Source of the DNA: Clostridium pasteurianum
GTDB taxonomy: Bacteria; Bacillota; Clostridia; Clostridiales; Clostridiaceae
NCBI RefSeq assembly: GCF_001705235.1
Contig: NZ_MCGV01000001.1
Coordinates: 2,232,001 to 2,296,000, forward strand
DNA length: 64,000 bases
Direction: 5' to 3'
A model generated the notes under the pieces. That model had not been told where the DNA came from. It did not search any database and worked only from the letters and a program-made list of their open reading frames with translations. Positions 54,343 to 63,120 of this stretch are shown here, in pieces; the first letter of the stretch is position 1; every line of letters begins with the position of its first letter. Made by a program: the position numbers and the translations under genes.

Positions 54343-54807
54343 TTAGTGAATGTCTATTCTTTTTGTGGATTCTTTTCCTTTAACCTTTTTAGGTAATACT
54401 ATTTTAAGAACACCATTGTTAAAGGAAGCATCAATATTTGCTTCATCTATATTATCCACATAGAAACTTCTTCTTGATTCGCCATAGCTTCGTTCACGTC
54501 TTACGAAATTGTTTTGGTCATCTTTGCTTTCAACTATATCTTCTCTCTTAGCGCCAATAGTTAAATAGTTGTTATCATACTCAAGAGCAATGTTTTCTTT
54601 CTTAACTCCAGGTAAATCTGCTGCTACGGTATATTTATTTTCATCTTCCTGTACATCTACAGTGAAATTTCCCATATTCATATTATTAAATTGTGCTGGT
54701 GCGAAAAAATCATCCGAGAAGAAGTTGTCAAACATTTTATCAAAAAAGTCGCCTCTTCTCATTAAACCATTATTATTATTTTTTCTAAAAGGAACCATTC
54801 CAAACAT
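54343..54807 (-). CDS. hsp18: Hsp20/alpha-crystallin small heat-shock protein (Hsp18, copy 2)
   Basis: 154 residues: an N-terminal arm rich in Asn/Phe/Asp, then an alpha-crystallin domain (about 45-145) with VAADLPGVKKENIAL and the C-terminal A-x-x-x-x-GVLKIVLPKK. An ATP-independent holdase that keeps unfolded proteins soluble. Very close to the preceding copy in sequence. Lies 74 bp downstream of it without a visible own CtsR box, so probably co-transcribed. Ribosome site TAGGAGG. Confidence 0.94.
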   Translation of the reverse strand: MFGMVPFRKNNNNGLMRRGDFFDKMFDNFFSDDFFAPAQFNNMNMGNFTVDVQEDENKYTVAADLPGVKKENIALEYDNNYLTIGAKREDIVESKDDQNNFVRRERSYGESRRSFYVDNIDEANIDASFNNGVLKIVLPKKVKGKESTKRIDIH

Positions 54808-54881: not shown

Positions 54882-55340
54882 TTAATGAATGTCTATTTGC
54901 TTTGAAGATTCTTTTCCTTTAACCTTTTTAGGCAAAATTATTTTGAGAACACCATTGTTAAAGGAAGCGTCAATATTTGTTTCATCTATATTATCTACAT
55001 AAAAACTTCTTTTAAGCTCTCCATAGCTTCGTTCACGTCTTACGAAATTATTTTTATCATCTTTATTTTCGGCAATATCTTCTCTTTTAGCACTTATTGT
55101 TAGATAGTTATTATCATATTCAAGATTAATATTTTCTTTTTTAGTTCCAGGTAAATCAGCTGCAACTATATAATTATCTTCATTTTCTTGTACATCCACA
55201 TTAAAGTTTCCCGTATTAGTAAATGACGTTGGTGCGAAAAAGTCATTTGAGAAGAAGTTATCAAACATTTTATCGAAAAAGTCATCTCTTCTCATTAAAT
55301 TATTGTTGTTATTTTTTTTAAAAGGAACCATTCCAAACAT
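54882..55340 (-). CDS. hsp18: Hsp20/alpha-crystallin small heat-shock protein (Hsp18, copy 1)
   Basis: 152 residues, same architecture as its neighbour: FGMVPFKKNNNNNLMRRDDF, alpha-crystallin domain and GVLKIILPKKVKGKESS tail. The pair looks like a recent tandem duplication, with most substitutions conservative. First gene after a sigma-A promoter overlapped by a CtsR operator, so it should be induced by heat or other protein stress. Ribosome site TTAGGAGG. Confidence 0.94.
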   Translation of the reverse strand: MFGMVPFKKNNNNNLMRRDDFFDKMFDNFFSNDFFAPTSFTNTGNFNVDVQENEDNYIVAADLPGTKKENINLEYDNNYLTISAKREDIAENKDDKNNFVRRERSYGELKRSFYVDNIDETNIDASFNNGVLKIILPKKVKGKESSKQIDIH

Positions 55341-55636: not shown

Positions 55637-55712
55637 GCTCCTGTAGCGCAGTTGGTAGCGTAGCTGATTCGTAATCAGTTGGTCACAGGTTCGAATCCTG
55701 CCTGGAGCACCA
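55637..55712 (+). tRNA. tRNA-Thr (CGT)
   Basis: The anticodon loop TTCGTAA gives CGT. D-arm GCGC/GCGT and anticodon stem GCTGA/TCAGT pair, and CCA is encoded. Two pairs are imperfect: T6 with T67 in the acceptor, and A49 with C65 in the T stem. It is nevertheless followed by its own terminator, so probably functional. Confidence 0.88.
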
Positions 55713-55870: not shown

Positions 55871-55934
55871 TTAACATATAGTGAAATATATGGTACAATT
55901 AACGTAACGAAAATGTTTTACAAGTCATGTTAAT
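55871..55934 (+). promoter_or_regulatory. Promoter and palindromic operator of regulator 1
   Basis: TTAACA (55871-55876), 17-bp spacer, TACAAT (55894-55899). The inverted repeat ATTAACGTAAC (55898-55908) / GTCATGTTAAT (55924-55934), with nine of eleven positions paired, overlaps the -10 end and the transcription start. The same layout occurs in copy 2. Confidence 0.75.
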
Positions 55935-55949: not shown

Positions 55950-57281
55950 ATGGCAAGTTATGAGATACTGTCTATTGGCGATAAACTTAAAAACTTAAGA
56001 GAAAAATATAATGTGAGGCAAGACGACATAGCTGGCGGAGATATTACTAGAAACCTTATAAGTCAGATAGAACATGGTAAGGCAAATCTTACTAGGAATG
56101 CTGCCGAAATTATATTAAAGAACCTAAAGAAAATTTGTGTTCAAAAGCATATCAAAGTTGATGAAAGTATAGAATATTTAATGGAAGATGAAAAATCTCA
56201 AGCTAATAAAATACTTGATGATTATATAAAAGAGCTTAAAGATTTGAGTGTTTATAAGGACGGGAGTTTTACCGAGAAATTAACAGAGGTAGAAGGGTTC
56301 TTGACTAATTGGAATTTAGTTGATAAAAAGATAGTCATTTTTGAGTTGGCTGGAGACTATTTTTCCAACGCTAATGATTTTTATAACAGTTCATTGTATT
56401 ATGAAAAGGCAAAGGCGCTAATGGACGTTAACGTTTATACCGAGGACTTAGTATCCATCTTAAGAAAGCTTTCAATGATTTATTCTTACATGGATAAATA
56501 TGAGGAAAACATAAAATGCTGTGATTTCGCTCTAAATCAGTTCGGGGACAAACTAAGCGAGCAATACCGCTCTATATTTCTTTTCAATAGTTCATTATGT
56601 TATTCAGGATTAAAGAAATATAACATAGCTCTCGACAGATTAAAAAAGTTAGAGCCTATAATCAAAGGCACAAATACGGATAAGTATTGTGAGGTGCTGG
56701 GGCAAGAGGGATTCTGTTTAGGAATGCTTGAAAAACACAATGAGGCACTAGACGTGTTTAGTAGAATACTTAAGTTAGTGAGCGAAGATAATCTTGAATT
56801 ACGGGTGTTAGTAATGTTTAATTTGGTAGACGCTTATATTAATCTTGGCAATATAGACATGGCAAAACAATACTTAGAAAAGATAGCTCAAACCATAGAT
56901 AAAGTACCACATACAGCAAAGAGTATCCCTTATCTATACCGTGAAGTCGGAAAGATACACAAAAAATTAAATGAAATAGTGACCGCAAAATCGTATTATT
57001 TAAAATCCTTGGACTATGCTAAGACATACAAGCAATACAACATAGTAAGAAGTGTATTAAATGATTTATTTGACATATACATTATTGACAACGATGATAA
57101 ATCAATTAACGAAGTTAAAGACATGTTTTTATTAAACGTAGGTAACGAGCAAAAGGTTGATGTACAGTTAATGAATAAGCTTTTTGAGTACTATTTGAAT
57201 CAAAAAGACTATGAAACCTTGAAAGAAATTCAAAAGTTTATTAAATTATATATGAAAGGTCGTGGCTATAATGTTATTTAA
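55950..57281 (+). CDS. RRNPP-type HTH-TPR quorum-sensing regulator, copy 1
   Basis: 443 residues. N-terminal XRE-type HTH (about residues 8-65: LKNLREKYNVRQDDIAGG, NLISQIEHGKANL), then a helical linker and TPR-like repeats from about residue 100 to the end, which form the peptide-binding superhelix of Rap/PlcR/PrgX-type regulators. The 3' end overlaps by 11 nt an opposite-frame gene for a 41-residue secreted peptide, the standard sensor-signal pairing. It presumably changes DNA binding when the processed peptide is re-imported. Start ATG after AAGGGG. Similar RRNPP systems regulate solvent formation and sporulation in C. acetobutylicum. Confidence 0.88.
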   Translation: MASYEILSIGDKLKNLREKYNVRQDDIAGGDITRNLISQIEHGKANLTRNAAEIILKNLKKICVQKHIKVDESIEYLMEDEKSQANKILDDYIKELKDLSVYKDGSFTEKLTEVEGFLTNWNLVDKKIVIFELAGDYFSNANDFYNSSLYYEKAKALMDVNVYTEDLVSILRKLSMIYSYMDKYEENIKCCDFALNQFGDKLSEQYRSIFLFNSSLCYSGLKKYNIALDRLKKLEPIIKGTNTDKYCEVLGQEGFCLGMLEKHNEALDVFSRILKLVSEDNLELRVLVMFNLVDAYINLGNIDMAKQYLEKIAQTIDKVPHTAKSIPYLYREVGKIHKKLNEIVTAKSYYLKSLDYAKTYKQYNIVRSVLNDLFDIYIIDNDDKSINEVKDMFLLNVGNEQKVDVQLMNKLFEYYLNQKDYETLKEIQKFIKLYMKGRGYNVI

Positions 57282-57396
57282 AAATCATAAATGGGGCATG
57301 AAATTGTTACTTTTATCAGTATTGGTTGTGGGGGCGTGTGTAGCGCTACCACATATTAGCTCTTTGTTGTCATATTCGCCTATGTTGGGTTGGTAA
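57271..57396 (+). CDS. Signalling-peptide precursor of copy 1 (41 residues)
   Basis: A short gene in a different frame from the regulator, whose end it overlaps by 11 nt. Positively charged N-terminus (LFKNHKWGMK), hydrophobic stretch (LLLLSVLVVGACVAL), then a polar tail ending SYSPMLGW. This is the charge-hydrophobic-mature-peptide layout of RRNPP pheromone precursors exported by Sec and trimmed to a short C-terminal peptide. A strong terminator follows the stop. No clear ribosome site (GGTCGTGG only), so translation is probably coupled to the regulator. The mature peptide is presumably within the last 10 residues. Confidence 0.8.
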   Translation: MLFKNHKWGMKLLLLSVLVVGACVALPHISSLLSYSPMLGW

Positions 57397-57419
57397 TTGA
57401 TAACGTTTCACATAGCAAA

Positions 57420-57470
57420 ACAAAAGGGGGCTGTACCGCTAAATCGATTAGTGGCGCAGCCCCCTTTTGT
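57420..57470 (+). terminator. Terminator of regulator-peptide unit 1
   Basis: CAAAAGGGGGCTG and CAGCCCCCTTTTG form a very stable 13-bp stem with a T-rich continuation. Confidence 0.9.
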
Positions 57471-57566
57471 TATTGTTATTCTATAGTTACTAATTTCTGC
57501 GTGTGTTTAATTTAGAAAATTTTATCTAGTATTGTTCTAAATAAGATTAAAATAAATTATACCATG

Positions 57567-57630
57567 TTAACAAATAATGAAGGATATGGTACAATTAACG
57601 CAACCAAAATATTTTATAAATTGCGTTAAT
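57567..57630 (+). promoter_or_regulatory. Promoter and palindromic operator of regulator 2
   Basis: TTAACA (57567-57572), 17-bp spacer, TACAAT (57590-57595). A perfect 10-bp inverted repeat ATTAACGCAA (57594-57603) / TTGCGTTAAT (57621-57630) with a 17-bp centre starts within the -10 element and ends just before the ribosome site AAGGGG. Confidence 0.78.
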
Positions 57631-58977: not shown

Positions 58978-59041
58978 AATCATAAGGGTAGTGTTAAGTT
59001 AGTGCTTTTATCTGTGTTGGTTGAGGGTACTTGTGATTAAT
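58968..59041 (+). pseudogene. Decayed signalling-peptide gene of copy 2
   Basis: DNA alignable to the copy-1 peptide gene: TTTAAA-AATCATAA near the start and a region encoding KLVLLSVLVEGTC, comparable to KLLLLSVLVVGAC. The start ATG is replaced by GCG, a deletion of a few bases shifts the frame, and a TAA stop follows Cys-Asp, removing the mature-peptide part. No usable start with ribosome site is seen. Confidence 0.7.
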
Positions 59042-59075
59042 TTGCAAAATTTTATTTGTTATTATTCTAAATAAG

Positions 59076-59370: not shown

Positions 59371-59433
59371 ATGTTTTGCATTAACTGCGGCAAAGAATTA
59401 AAAAGTGACAGTAAATTTTTTATGGAGGGGTAA
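59371..59433 (+). pseudogene. Truncated zinc-ribbon reading frame (20 residues)
   Basis: Starts MFCINCGKELKSDSKF, the first half of a zinc-ribbon of the type F-C-x2-C-G-x-E-L...F-C-x2-C, with a good ribosome site (GGAGGTG). The second Cys pair is missing: the frame runs into MEG and a stop inside the ribosome site of the next gene. It may be a relic of a zinc-ribbon membrane protein or now serve as a leader coupling translation to the ChW gene. Confidence 0.55.
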
Positions 59434-59437
59434 ATTA

Positions 59438-61450
59438 ATGAATATATTATTTAAAAATAAGATTGTAAATCTACTAATAGCAGCAAGTTTGGTTATTAGT
59501 TTAATAGGAGTTATACCTACTAAGAATGTAGCAGCTGATGCTACTGATCAGATTGGAGTCCAATATAAAGCACAAGTACAAAATATAGGTTGGCAAAAGG
59601 ATGTATTAGATGGTGCAGATGCAGGAACTGTAGGTCAGGGATTGAGAATGGAAGCTGTTAAACTCAATTTAACTAATGCTCCAAGTGGTACATCAATACA
59701 ATATCAAGCTCATGTTCAAAACATAGGCTGGCAAAAGTGGGTATCAGATGGACAAGAAGCTGGTACAGATGGAAGATCTTTAAGGGTTGAAGCAATAAGA
59801 ATTAAACTTAGTAACCTACCAGGGTATTCAGTTCAATACAGGGTTCAAGTTCAAAATAGAGGATGGACAAGTTGGGTTAGTGATGGACAAGAAGCTGGTA
59901 CAACAGGAAGTGGTTTAAGGCTTGAGACAATTGAAATTAAGTTAGTTAAAGCAAGTAATAATAGTGAAGTTGGCGTATCCTATAAGGGACATGTTCAAAA
60001 TATAGGTTGGCAGGATTCAGCTGAAAATGGTCAAATAAGTGGAACAGAAGGACAAGATTTAAGAGTAGAAGCATTTAAAATTGGATTATTAAATGCTCCT
60101 GCTGGTGCACATATAAGATATCAAACACATGTACAGAACATAGGTTGGCAAATCCCTGTAGAGGACAATGCAGAAGGTGGAACAGATGGCAAATCGCTAA
60201 GAGTAGAAGCTGTAAAAATTGCCTTAGAAAATCTCCCAGGGTATTCAGTACAATATAGGGCACATGTTCAAAACATAGGCTGGCAACAATGGGTGTCAAA
60301 TGGACAAGAAGCAGGAACAGATGGTAAATCACTAAGAATTGAAGCAATAGAAATAAGAATAGTTAAAACTACTGATGTAAATACAACACCAGTGCCATTT
60401 ATAGGTGATATAAATGTATTGGCAATAAAATTAAATAAAACTACAGATACCATAACTACAGGAACTACTGATACTTTAATTGCTACAGTAGCACCAAGCA
60501 ACGCTACAAATCAGGCAGTTAAATGGACATCCTCAAATAATAATGTAGCAACAGTAGATAATACCGGAAAAGTAACAGCAGTAAGTAAGGGAACAGCAAC
60601 TATTACAGCTACTACAGATGATGGAAATAAAACTTCAAGCTGTGATGTAACTGTAAATGATCCAGTAGTAGCAGTATCGTCAGTAAACTTAAATAAAACT
60701 ACAGATACCATAACTGTAGGAAATACTGATACTTTAACTGCTACAGTAGCACCAAGCAACGCTACAAATCAGGCAGTTAAATGGACATCCTCAAATAATG
60801 ATATAGCAACAGTAGATAATACCGGAAAGGTAACAGCAGTAAGTAAGGGAACAGCAACTATTACAGCTGCTACAGATGATGGAAATAAGACTTCAAGTTG
60901 TGATGTAACTGTAAATGATCCAGTAGTAACTTTCAAAGATAGTAATTTAGAGCGAGCTGTAAGACGAAGTATTAATCAGCCAACTGGGGATATTTATAAA
61001 AGTCATGTTATAAATATTAATTGTATAGTTTCAGATGAAGTAAATATAACTGACTTAAGTGGAATTGAAAACTTGTTGAATTTGCAGCATATTGAGATGA
61101 ATAAGGATAAAATAAGTGACATAAGTGCATTAAAAGGATTAACAAATTTACAATCTCTTTATATATATGATAATCAGATAAGTGACATAAATGCACTGAG
61201 AGGGTTAACAAATTTAGCATACCTCAACTTAGATAGTAATAAGATAAGTGATATAAGTGCATTGAAAGGATTAACTAATCTGCAGTCCCTTGATTTGAGT
61301 AACAATCAAATAAGTGATATAAGCGCATTAAAAGGATTAACTAATCTAAAAGATCTTTATCTATATGGTGATAACATAAGTGATTCTGATATTCAAGAAT
61401 TACAGAAAGCTTTACCTATTACGTTTATACATTATAAATATAATAAGTAA
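59438..61450 (+). CDS. Secreted ChW-repeat / Big_2 / leucine-rich repeat protein
   Basis: 670 residues. Signal peptide (residues 1-32, ending near NVAADA). Six ChW modules (about 35-310), each of about 45 residues with the Q-N-x-G-W-Q and DGQEAGT-x-G-x-x-LR-x-E pattern. Two bacterial Ig-like Big_2 domains (about 332-490) encoded by a 258-bp near-identical direct repeat. A C-terminal internalin-like part (about 495-670) with cap VTFKDSNLERAVR and five or so 22-residue LRRs (KGLTNLQSLDLSNNQISDIS). ChW repeats are a clostridial surface-module type, probably binding cell-wall or substrate. ATG at 59438 after GAGGGG. No sortase motif. Confidence 0.9.
   Translation: MNILFKNKIVNLLIAASLVISLIGVIPTKNVAADATDQIGVQYKAQVQNIGWQKDVLDGADAGTVGQGLRMEAVKLNLTNAPSGTSIQYQAHVQNIGWQKWVSDGQEAGTDGRSLRVEAIRIKLSNLPGYSVQYRVQVQNRGWTSWVSDGQEAGTTGSGLRLETIEIKLVKASNNSEVGVSYKGHVQNIGWQDSAENGQISGTEGQDLRVEAFKIGLLNAPAGAHIRYQTHVQNIGWQIPVEDNAEGGTDGKSLRVEAVKIALENLPGYSVQYRAHVQNIGWQQWVSNGQEAGTDGKSLRIEAIEIRIVKTTDVNTTPVPFIGDINVLAIKLNKTTDTITTGTTDTLIATVAPSNATNQAVKWTSSNNNVATVDNTGKVTAVSKGTATITATTDDGNKTSSCDVTVNDPVVAVSSVNLNKTTDTITVGNTDTLTATVAPSNATNQAVKWTSSNNDIATVDNTGKVTAVSKGTATITAATDDGNKTSSCDVTVNDPVVTFKDSNLERAVRRSINQPTGDIYKSHVININCIVSDEVNITDLSGIENLLNLQHIEMNKDKISDISALKGLTNLQSLYIYDNQISDINALRGLTNLAYLNLDSNKISDISALKGLTNLQSLDLSNNQISDISALKGLTNLKDLYLYGDNISDSDIQELQKALPITFIHYKYNK
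60431..60928 (+). repeat. 258-bp direct repeat encoding two Big_2 domains
   Basis: The segment starting TTAAATAAAACTACAGATAC at 60431 recurs at 60689, offset 258 bp (86 codons). The copies differ at only a few positions, implying recent duplication or gene conversion inside the gene. Confidence 0.85.
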
Positions 61451-61734: not shown

Positions 61735-63120
61735 ATGAAAAATATTAAATGCAAGGTTAACTTAATTTTAAGTATTTCTTTAATAGCTAGTTTAATTTTT
61801 ACTACTATGAGTTTTAATGGAGCAATGATACCGACTAATAACAATGTATATGCGGCAACTGCTAAAAATGATACTGTAGTAACTTTTAAGGATAAAAACT
61901 TAGAACAACTTGTAAGAGAAACTATAGACAAGCCTACAGGTAAGCTGTACAAAAGTGATGTTGTGGGTATTACTAAACTGAGTACTAATAAAGAAATAAC
62001 CGATATTAGCGGTATTGAGAATCTAACAAACCTACAATATCTTAGTTTGGAGGATAGTTCAGTAGGTCTTTTTAATGATATAACACCATTAAAAGGTTTA
62101 ACTAATTTAAAATTTCTTAAAATAATAAATAATAGGATATCAGATATAAGTCCATTAAAAAATTTAACAAAACTGCAATCACTTTGCTTAGATAATAATG
62201 AAATAATGGATGTAACACCGTTAAAGGGTTTAACTAATTTAAAATCTCTTGATCTAGAAGAAAACAAAATAAAAGATGTAAGTTCATTAAAAGGGTTATC
62301 TAGATTAACTAATCTTGATCTTGATGACAACGAAGTAGGAAGTATAAATGATTTAAGTACATTAACCAAGTTAACAACATTACGTTTGGATCATAATGTG
62401 ATTACAGATATAAGTCCTTTAGAAGGATTAACTAATCTTAACTTAATTATTTTAAGCGGAAACGAAATAAGTAGTATTGAGCCATTAGAAAAATTAACTG
62501 AACTACAGAATCTTGATTTAAGAGGTACTCACATAAAGGATATAACTACTTTAAAAGGTTTATATAAGTTGCAAGAACTTTATTTAGATGATAATGAAAT
62601 AACGGATGTTACTCCGCTAAAAAACTTGAAGAATTTGAAGGAGTTATATTTAAGTTGGAATCCAGTAAAAGATGTAAGTTCTTTAGATGGAATGCCAAAC
62701 TTACAAGTTCTTAATTTGTATAATACTAAAGTACAAAGTGTATCATTAAGTAATTTGCCAAATTTGGAATTGTTAAATTTAGGTAATACAAGAGAACTAA
62801 CTAATGTATCTTTAAATGGATTGCCTAAATTACAATCAGCTTATATAACGTTTTGTAAATTTGTAGTAAAATTTTCATTTAATAATTTGCCTAATTTAAC
62901 TTTTCTTGATTTAAGTAGTGAGGGTCCAATTGATTTGAATCAAATTAAAGGATTAACTAGTTTAGTATATCTTAAGTTGTATGATGATAGGATAAGTAAT
63001 GTAGATATATTAAAGGAATTTACAAATTTAAAAACGCTTATTTTATGGGGAGATCAAATAAGTGATACTGATAAAAATGGGTTAAAGCAAGCATTACCTA
63101 ATTGCGATATACAATATTAA
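61735..63120 (+). CDS. Secreted leucine-rich repeat (internalin-like) protein
   Basis: 461 residues. Signal peptide (about 1-40, LILSISLIASLIFTTMSF then VYAA). Cap segment VTFKDKNLEQLVRETIDKPT, shared with the preceding ChW protein. About sixteen 22-residue LRRs of the internalin type (LTNLKSLDLEENKIKDVSSL), the last few irregular, ending directly in a final repeat without anchor or sortase motif. Likely released or non-covalently wall-bound, binding a protein partner. Strong ribosome site (AAGGAGG). Related to the LRR part of the neighbour, so module shuffling is likely. Confidence 0.88.
   Translation: MKNIKCKVNLILSISLIASLIFTTMSFNGAMIPTNNNVYAATAKNDTVVTFKDKNLEQLVRETIDKPTGKLYKSDVVGITKLSTNKEITDISGIENLTNLQYLSLEDSSVGLFNDITPLKGLTNLKFLKIINNRISDISPLKNLTKLQSLCLDNNEIMDVTPLKGLTNLKSLDLEENKIKDVSSLKGLSRLTNLDLDDNEVGSINDLSTLTKLTTLRLDHNVITDISPLEGLTNLNLIILSGNEISSIEPLEKLTELQNLDLRGTHIKDITTLKGLYKLQELYLDDNEITDVTPLKNLKNLKELYLSWNPVKDVSSLDGMPNLQVLNLYNTKVQSVSLSNLPNLELLNLGNTRELTNVSLNGLPKLQSAYITFCKFVVKFSFNNLPNLTFLDLSSEGPIDLNQIKGLTSLVYLKLYDDRISNVDILKEFTNLKTLILWGDQISDTDKNGLKQALPNCDIQY

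Follow-up and report, generated by a model that had tools for sequence, protein, structure and literature searches.

A probable Qss-type receptor-pheromone gene pair in Clostridium pasteurianum and a candidate common operator of clostridial Qsr receptors

Results

The window analyzed here, a stretch of 64,000 nucleotides of Clostridium pasteurianum (assembly GCF_001705235.1, contig NZ_MCGV01000001.1, positions 2,232,001 to 2,296,000), contains an RRNPP-type receptor/regulator gene, qsr, followed by qsp, a short gene for a putative pheromone precursor. By open reading frame (ORF), Pfam, and structure model, qsr (55950 to 57281, plus strand, stop codon 57279 to 57281) encodes 443 amino acids with an N-terminal helix-turn-helix (HTH) and a tetratricopeptide repeat (TPR) superhelix. 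The qsp ORF (57271 to 57396, plus strand) starts with ATG, lies in a different frame, and overlaps qsr by 11 nt; an in-frame GTG precedes the ATG at 57262. Its 41-amino-acid product, MLFKNHKW...SYSPMLGW, which is assigned as a precursor by peptide alignment, profile, and dN/dS in addition to the ORF, has a charged start, a hydrophobic core, and the tail SYSPMLGW. A terminator-like hairpin follows (about 57412 to 57479, plus strand); it folds at -45.2 kcal/mol (z = -9.1), and none of 200 shuffles was equally stable, although it was not among the sites listed by a terminator-pattern scan. The preliminary description of this DNA had reported the two overlapping frames, the charged N terminus, hydrophobic core, and polar tail of the peptide, and the stable terminator, all of which we found as described. 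Its reading of the pair as a peptide signaling module is supported by a gene order, a precursor length, and a C-terminal Pro and Trp that match the Qss systems, with signaling itself proposed by analogy. Beyond that description, we found a neighboring second receptor with a decayed peptide gene, ten more systems in the genome, and an operator-like dyad.

The regulator and the 41-codon ORF belong to the Qsr/Qsp (Qss) kind of RRNPP system known from C. acetobutylicum, where eight such systems share this gene order, precursors of 39 to 50 amino acids, and a C-terminal Pro and Trp, according to the available text of the report (Kotte 2020, PMC7376267). The window receptor is homologous to QsrA to QsrH, with 41 to 53% identity to the seven unbroken receptors of a genome taken as C. 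acetobutylicum ATCC 824 (G003), and a Qsp of fitting length, 41 amino acids, lies directly behind it. The window tail (Leu-Leu-Ser-Tyr-Ser-Pro...Trp) has the Leu, Pro, and Trp of Qss peptides; among ten aligned precursors of the window's genome, Pro and Trp are the only invariant tail residues. As in RRNPP proteins other than Rap, an N-terminal HTH precedes a TPR superhelix: Pfam matched TPR_12 above and HTH_19 below the cut-off, and the structure model (pLDDT 90.7) contains the HTH helices and TPR hairpins. The TPR region, residues 81 to 437 (56190 to 57260, plus strand), is the predicted peptide-binding domain by Pfam, model, and fold comparison, and the modeled fold resembles solved RRNPP receptors, among which NprR ranked best. 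The adjacent ORF has the layout of an RRNPP propeptide, with a charged start, a hydrophobic stretch, and a putative C-terminal signal. A search for an oligopeptide permease component returned five PF00496 proteins. Because the tail aligns with the active C. acetobutylicum peptide QspB7 (AEPTWGW), the mature pheromone is predicted to be about YSPMLGW (codons 57373 to 57393, plus strand), a length that we infer. An arbitrium (AimR/AimP)-like phage origin was considered and rejected, as no match at E <= 1e-5 was found in 50,697 phage records; the neighbors of the module are dnaB, hsp20, tRNA, and surface-protein genes.

The pair is one of many in its genome (G000; 4.68 Mb, two contigs), where 16 receptor protein matches comprise 14 full-length receptors, the remnant L023 (L-numbers label loci), and a weak HTH match, L024. 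The preliminary description would have been contradicted by relatives without a conserved short frame behind the regulator; a short hydrophobic peptide ORF ending in P-x-x-x-W instead adjoins the regulator at 11 of the 14 full-length loci, and a peptide frame is present at all eight receptor loci of G003 (an extra weak HTH match there, L070, has none). The tails of the 11 systems are SYSPMLGW (window), AYFPMSGW, AYCPFFTW, SALPISAW (second replicon), SACPVMPW, SQVPLWAW, ATEPVLPW, AHAPELPW, SYFPDIPW, SAGPILPW, and AHYPVWPW. A profile built from ten of these peptides recovers those ten and the eleventh (L014, outside the profile), all at E < 1e-6; its next hit, at E = 5.5e-4, lies inside a 690-amino-acid frame, leaving no convincing twelfth place. 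Three full-length receptors lack a peptide gene: L021, L022, and, within the window, the second receptor, L011. L022 (G000:C1:2420727-2425013) groups with the solvent regulator QsrB in the receptor tree (support 100/99) and is its nearest relative here, with no recognizable peptide gene behind it. In both window genes dN is below dS: compared with the nearest paralogue, L010, dN is 0.19 and dS 0.54 for qsp, and 0.11 and 0.89 for the regulator.

In two sister genomes (G001 and G002), an ORF was counted as precursor at 13 of 16 receptor loci, hydrophobic but of another tail type; the tails at these loci (L071 to L086) are, for example, GIGGGFLDD or IDYPPMTD in place of PxxxW. A further locus, L083, has a 31-amino-acid ORF that ends in Trp and lacks the motif. 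A wider contig collection, which may leave out records near the window, contains eight related loci: two of C. hydrogenum, five of Tissierella simiarum, and one of a Tissierellia metagenome-assembled genome. Comparison with plasmid DNA gave no match to the second-replicon locus.

A predicted promoter of the receptor-peptide operon was located by consensus scan at 55871 to 55899 (plus strand; TTAACA, 17 nt, TACAAT with TG), and by eye this layout recurs upstream of many paralogues. Just behind its -10 element, at the predicted transcription start, lies the dyad GTAACGAAAATGTTTTAC (GTAA-N10-TTAC, 55904 to 55921), which we propose as an autoregulatory Qsr operator. The same dyad occurs within 110 nt before the gene in 12 of 21 receptor promoters of G000 and G003 (L069 and L023, whose starts are missing, were excluded), against 0.09 expected from shuffles, a count over paralogues that are not independent of each other. 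Only this spacing is enriched; each of the others (4 to 9 and 11 to 16) occurs 0 to 2 times in the same 21 promoters. The dyad also precedes 7 of 16 sister receptors (0.03 expected), located further upstream, and 7 of 21 more distant receptors in the 200 nt searched, including a tandem array of three in G017 and two loci that carry the dyad twice. The tandem locus (L089, G017:C54:115899-122258) belongs to another genus; each receptor has its own dyad about 85 nt upstream, and no precursor was found behind the one receptor scanned. Six Tissierella or Tissierellia loci have no dyad in the 200 nt before the receptor.

Comparison of the receptors places a putative recognition-helix segment, TRNLISQIE, at 56046 to 56072 (plus strand; helix 34 to 41 in the model). 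It is identical in all 18 peptide-bearing receptors compared (11 from the window's genome and 7 from G003). Segment 30 to 50 of the 11 receptors has a mean identity of 84%, versus 40% for TPR4 to TPR8. Since the putative recognition helix is identical while the TPRs differ, the comparison suggests that receptors of different signals recognize a single DNA target.

A strict form of the dyad, GTAAA-N8-TTTAC, occurs 14 times in G000 and 16 times in G003. Of these 30 sites, 29 were classified, two of them (at L010 and L012) being receptor promoters; the one left over, at L017, is likewise a receptor promoter. Just 1 of the 29 lies inside a gene, versus 43 of 64 sites with control spacings of 9 or 10 (p = 2.5e-9), and even that one (L208), which we kept as scored, appears promoter-like by eye, before a start with a signal-like sequence. 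A gene for a putative secreted protein begins no more than 160 nt downstream of 12 of the 29 sites, versus 1 of 64 controls (p = 1.3e-6); for noncoding sites alone the counts are 12 of 28 and 1 of 21 (p = 0.003), and at a reach of 350 nt, 13 of 29 and 2 of 64. The signal-peptide rule and gene caller behind these counts are our own heuristics, applied alike to sites and controls. No gene start was near 9 of the 29 sites at 160 nt and 2 at 350 nt. The N7 spacing is not promoter specific in G003, with 4 of 6 classified sites in genes; a seventh listed site (2625051), unclassified, lies upstream of a thermolysin-type gene.

By Pfam, the genes behind strict sites, several of them cut by the end of the examined stretch, encode GH5 cellulases (L214, L190, and L203; L197 and L168 by a weaker dyad or longer distance), GH9 (L194, and L191 at 145 nt) and GH26 (L186, site at 195 nt) enzymes, cellulosomal scaffoldin with CBM3, X2, and cohesin domains (L207 and L192), a thermolysin-type protease (L212), an M6 protease (L195), a polysaccharide deacetylase (L183), a protein with a starch-binding module (L185), a beta-helix protein (L211), metallo-beta-lactamase-fold proteins (L213 and L200), and histidine kinases (L189 and L198). 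Six promoters carry the strict dyad in both species, those of the kinase, GH5 (L214/L190), scaffoldin, GH9, lactamase-fold, and HAD hydrolase (L209/L184) genes, paired by eye and Pfam apart from the kinases, which share 39% identity. The kinase gene L189 adjoins qsrB in G003 and has 654 codons from its ATG. Since QsrB is CA_C0324 and 654 is the length listed for CAC0323, we take L189 for CAC0323. The available part of a review describes CAC0323 as a 7-TM-PAS-HisKA protein that may or may not act directly on Spo0A, and reports reduced spore formation in its mutants (PMC11210211).

Directly downstream of the module, a second promoter (57567 to 57595, plus strand; TTAACA, 17 nt, TACAAT; consensus scan) precedes the degenerate dyad GCAACCAAAATATTTTAT (57600 to 57617; two mismatches to GTAA-N10-TTAC) and the orphan receptor gene L011 (57646 to 58977, plus strand; 443 amino acids, 76% identical to the first receptor). 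Behind it lies a decayed qsp remnant (58978 to 59046, plus strand; profile match with an internal stop, E = 0.09) that by eye lacks a start codon, is frame-shifted, and stops early. We can only guess that the orphan may listen to its neighbor's peptide.

A palindrome near GATAACGTTATC stands 2 to 9 nt after the qsp stop in the window (57399 to 57410, in the variant GATAACGTTTCA) and at L010, L012 to L018, L023, L065, and L066. Within three mismatches it occurs at 12 of 20 qsp loci versus 0.33 expected, in a test that is partly circular, the motif having been derived from the same sequences, and at none of 13 sister loci. In the window's genome, 5 of the 8 distinct sites within one mismatch of TGATAACGTTAYC follow qsp or, once, the L023 remnant. 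The palindrome resembles a LacI/CcpA-type site and is a candidate element. We set it aside as a Qsr operator: even with up to three mismatches allowed, 8 of 20 qsp stops and all 13 sister peptides lack it, and it has this LacI/CcpA-type look.

Discussion

With the window module, the already known Qss kind gains a well-supported peptide-receptor pair whose candidate pheromone can be named, and the reading of the pair as a Qss-type RRNPP signaling module, signaling role included and operator set apart, is probable. In the mechanism that we propose, a single sigma-A promoter drives the receptor gene and the translationally overlapping precursor gene. By analogy with known systems, the precursor would be exported through its signal-peptide-like part and trimmed to roughly YSPMLGW, and an oligopeptide permease would import the peptide, whose binding in the TPR groove would change DNA binding by the HTH. 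The receptor would repress its own promoter at the GTAA-N10-TTAC dyad overlapping the transcription start, in the manner of RstA. Members of the Qsr family, with their one recognition helix, would read the same dyad, in its strict form, before exoenzyme, cellulosome, protease, and sporulation-kinase genes. If the whole family reads this shared dyad, many pheromones would feed one regulon. Beyond the gene pair, its family membership and conservation, and the dyad with its placement, all of which are observed, the proposal depends on binding of the dyad by Qsr rather than another protein, for which we see about even odds. We assign a probability of roughly 45% to the full reading, in which GTAAA-N8-TTTAC would serve clostridial Qsr receptors in general as their operator; some dozen different pheromones per cell would converge, through receptors with one recognition helix, on one regulon comprising the receptors, the sol operon, a histidine kinase of sporulation, secreted cellulases, proteases, and a cellulosomal scaffoldin; and some published CcpA cre_var sites would really, or also, be quorum-sensing sites.

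Several points weigh against the proposed explanation of module and dyad. The TPR region of the model ranks nearer to eukaryotic LGN/Pins TPRs than to RRNPP receptors; and among the 60 of 69 profile matches listed, the only solved RRNPP member is RapH, reached weakly (E = 0.029). The exact dyad is absent from 9 of the 21 receptor promoters of G000 and G003, including that of qsrB (one mismatch), and from 14 of the 21 more distant ones. The strict dyad has no genome-wide excess, the two control spacings together giving 35 and 29 sites, so that its placement, not its number, is the evidence. For sol-20, which is among the strict sites, binding by CcpA as a cre_var site has been published. Finally, the expectation of the preliminary description that the peptide tail varies together with the TPR part held in part. 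Tail similarity falls as receptor distance grows in a set of 19 pairs (r = -0.33, permutation p = 0.00015; tail identity, p = 0.0005) and in one of 16 pairs (p = 0.0038 and 0.0017), but the correlation is fragile and becomes unclear in the 14 pairs without recent duplicates and two long branches (p = 0.085 and 0.28). Receptor-peptide pairs are thus inherited together, but the correlation does not prove co-adaptation. Receptor columns such as 394 and 179 correlate with the residue before the tail Trp, on only 1 (starred branches) to 3 independent pairs.

The strongest alternative accepts the module as a real Qss system but makes the dyad a site of CcpA (cre_var, TGTAAA-Nx-TTTACA), or of another global exoenzyme regulator that also controls the receptors, with Qsr reading something else. 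We regard this as a serious possibility, if not the expected one. Exoenzymes are classic targets of carbon repression, and strict sites have the outer T/A of cre_var somewhat more often (30 of 58 flanks) than controls do (44 of 128). On the 192-kb replicon of G003, the three sol sites, with spacers of 7, 8, and 18, lie at 175376, 175486, and 175677, the N8 site 305 nt before the adhE-type gene. Gel-shift and reporter data exist for CcpA at sol-20, where the available text reports gel shifts and a reporter effect that is lost in a ccpA mutant (Yang 2017, PMC5263246); we saw none for Qsr. However, the same text reports that sol-20 kept light CcpA binding after replacement of both arms and that single changes at the outer T/A abolished CcpA binding at sol-41, whereas the outer T or A is absent from 10 of the 12 receptor dyads of G000 and G003. 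The right arm of the window dyad, TTTACA, fits cre_var, but its left arm, CGTAAC, differs at 2 of 6 bases, including the outer T. A single spacing is enriched in receptor promoters, whereas cre_var has a free spacer, and other spacers lie in genes more often than N8 (1 of 29), as seen for N9/N10 (43 of 64) and, in G003, for N7 (4 of 6 classified, 7 listed) and N11 to N20 (9 of 20 classified, 26 listed).

The two remaining alternatives concern the module itself. That the 41-amino-acid ORF is translated as a small membrane peptide or toxin-like protein coexpressed with the HTH regulator would suit its hydrophobic core, its position directly behind the HTH protein, and a secretion that is only predicted, yet we consider it improbable, as PxxxW is kept in all 11 paralogous precursors of the window's genome and short synthetic tail peptides of one family member are active when added to culture. 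Least probable of all is that the module is a nonfunctional remnant of the same duplications that gave rise to the orphan receptor: the neighbor no longer has a qsp gene, and its dyad is degenerate, but the first receptor and qsp are open, with dN below dS in both, and their promoter and dyad are intact.

Compared with QssA to QssH of C. acetobutylicum ATCC 824 (QsrA-H/QspA-H), the window module shares the order of receptor and short precursor, the HTH and TPR architecture, the precursor length, and the Pro and C-terminal Trp. It differs in belonging to a separate paralogue clade (L009, L010, L012, L013, and the orphan L011), in the 11-nt overlap of three clade members, and in a nonproline residue before the Trp; the genome has 11 complete systems rather than 8, and its nearest relative of QsrB is without a recognizable peptide gene. 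NprR/NprX of Bacillus, which controls extracellular enzymes, offers the best-ranked solved fold and a parallel to the proposed regulon, although no NprR match was obtained by sequence profile at E <= 0.01. The two-gene organization also resembles, by description, that of QssR/QssP of C. saccharoperbutylacetonicum, whose mutants affect solvents, sporulation, and motility in the available account (Feng 2020, PMC7206700). Like RstA of Clostridioides difficile, an RRNPP regulator whose inverted repeat overlaps its own promoter, as the dyad at 55904 to 55921 does, and mediates autoregulation (PMC6414698, as far as its accessible text goes), the window receptor is proposed to autoregulate; unlike RstA, for which the same text reports no clear box consensus, it has a fixed-spacing dyad that recurs in many receptor promoters. 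The arms of cre_var (available text of Yang 2017, PMC5263246) overlap the dyad, and sol-20 is shared, but the dyad has a fixed spacing and optional outer bases in place of a free spacer and outer T/A.

The dyad matters more than the module, since a candidate operator and a set of targets, among them the sol promoter and the kinase gene next to qsrB, make the question testable. Its targets suggest what the peptide signals may control, and if QsrB represses the kinase gene, its effect on sporulation would follow. The accessible text of Kotte 2020 (PMC7376267) leaves the mode of action of QsrB open, and a 2021 review states that a mechanism had not been described (PMC8102284). According to the authors of the RstA study, PlcR is, to their knowledge, the one regulator of this kind with a defined motif (PMC6414698, available text). 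In the titles and abstract openings listed for open-license literature on RRNPP with Clostridium, cellulosome, binding motif, operator, or autoregulation, no such site is described, and the dyad, its spacing, and its placement appear to be new as far as this literature shows.

Other features of the window bear on its context. The large genes downstream, 59405 to 61450 (a protein with ChW repeats, Big_2, and leucine-rich repeats) and 61735 to 63120 (leucine-rich repeats), have no exact dyad before them. Two tandem Hsp20 genes lie on the minus strand at 54343 to 54807 and 54882 to 55340, versus one in the G003 stretch examined. The window copy stands just 3' of a tRNA-Thr gene (55637 to 55712) and L010 just 3' of a tRNA-Leu gene (L010:3233-3316), in the same orientation; these are 2 of the 13 full-length loci scanned, L011 not being scanned by itself. 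Other genes follow this hsp-tRNA-Thr segment in G003.
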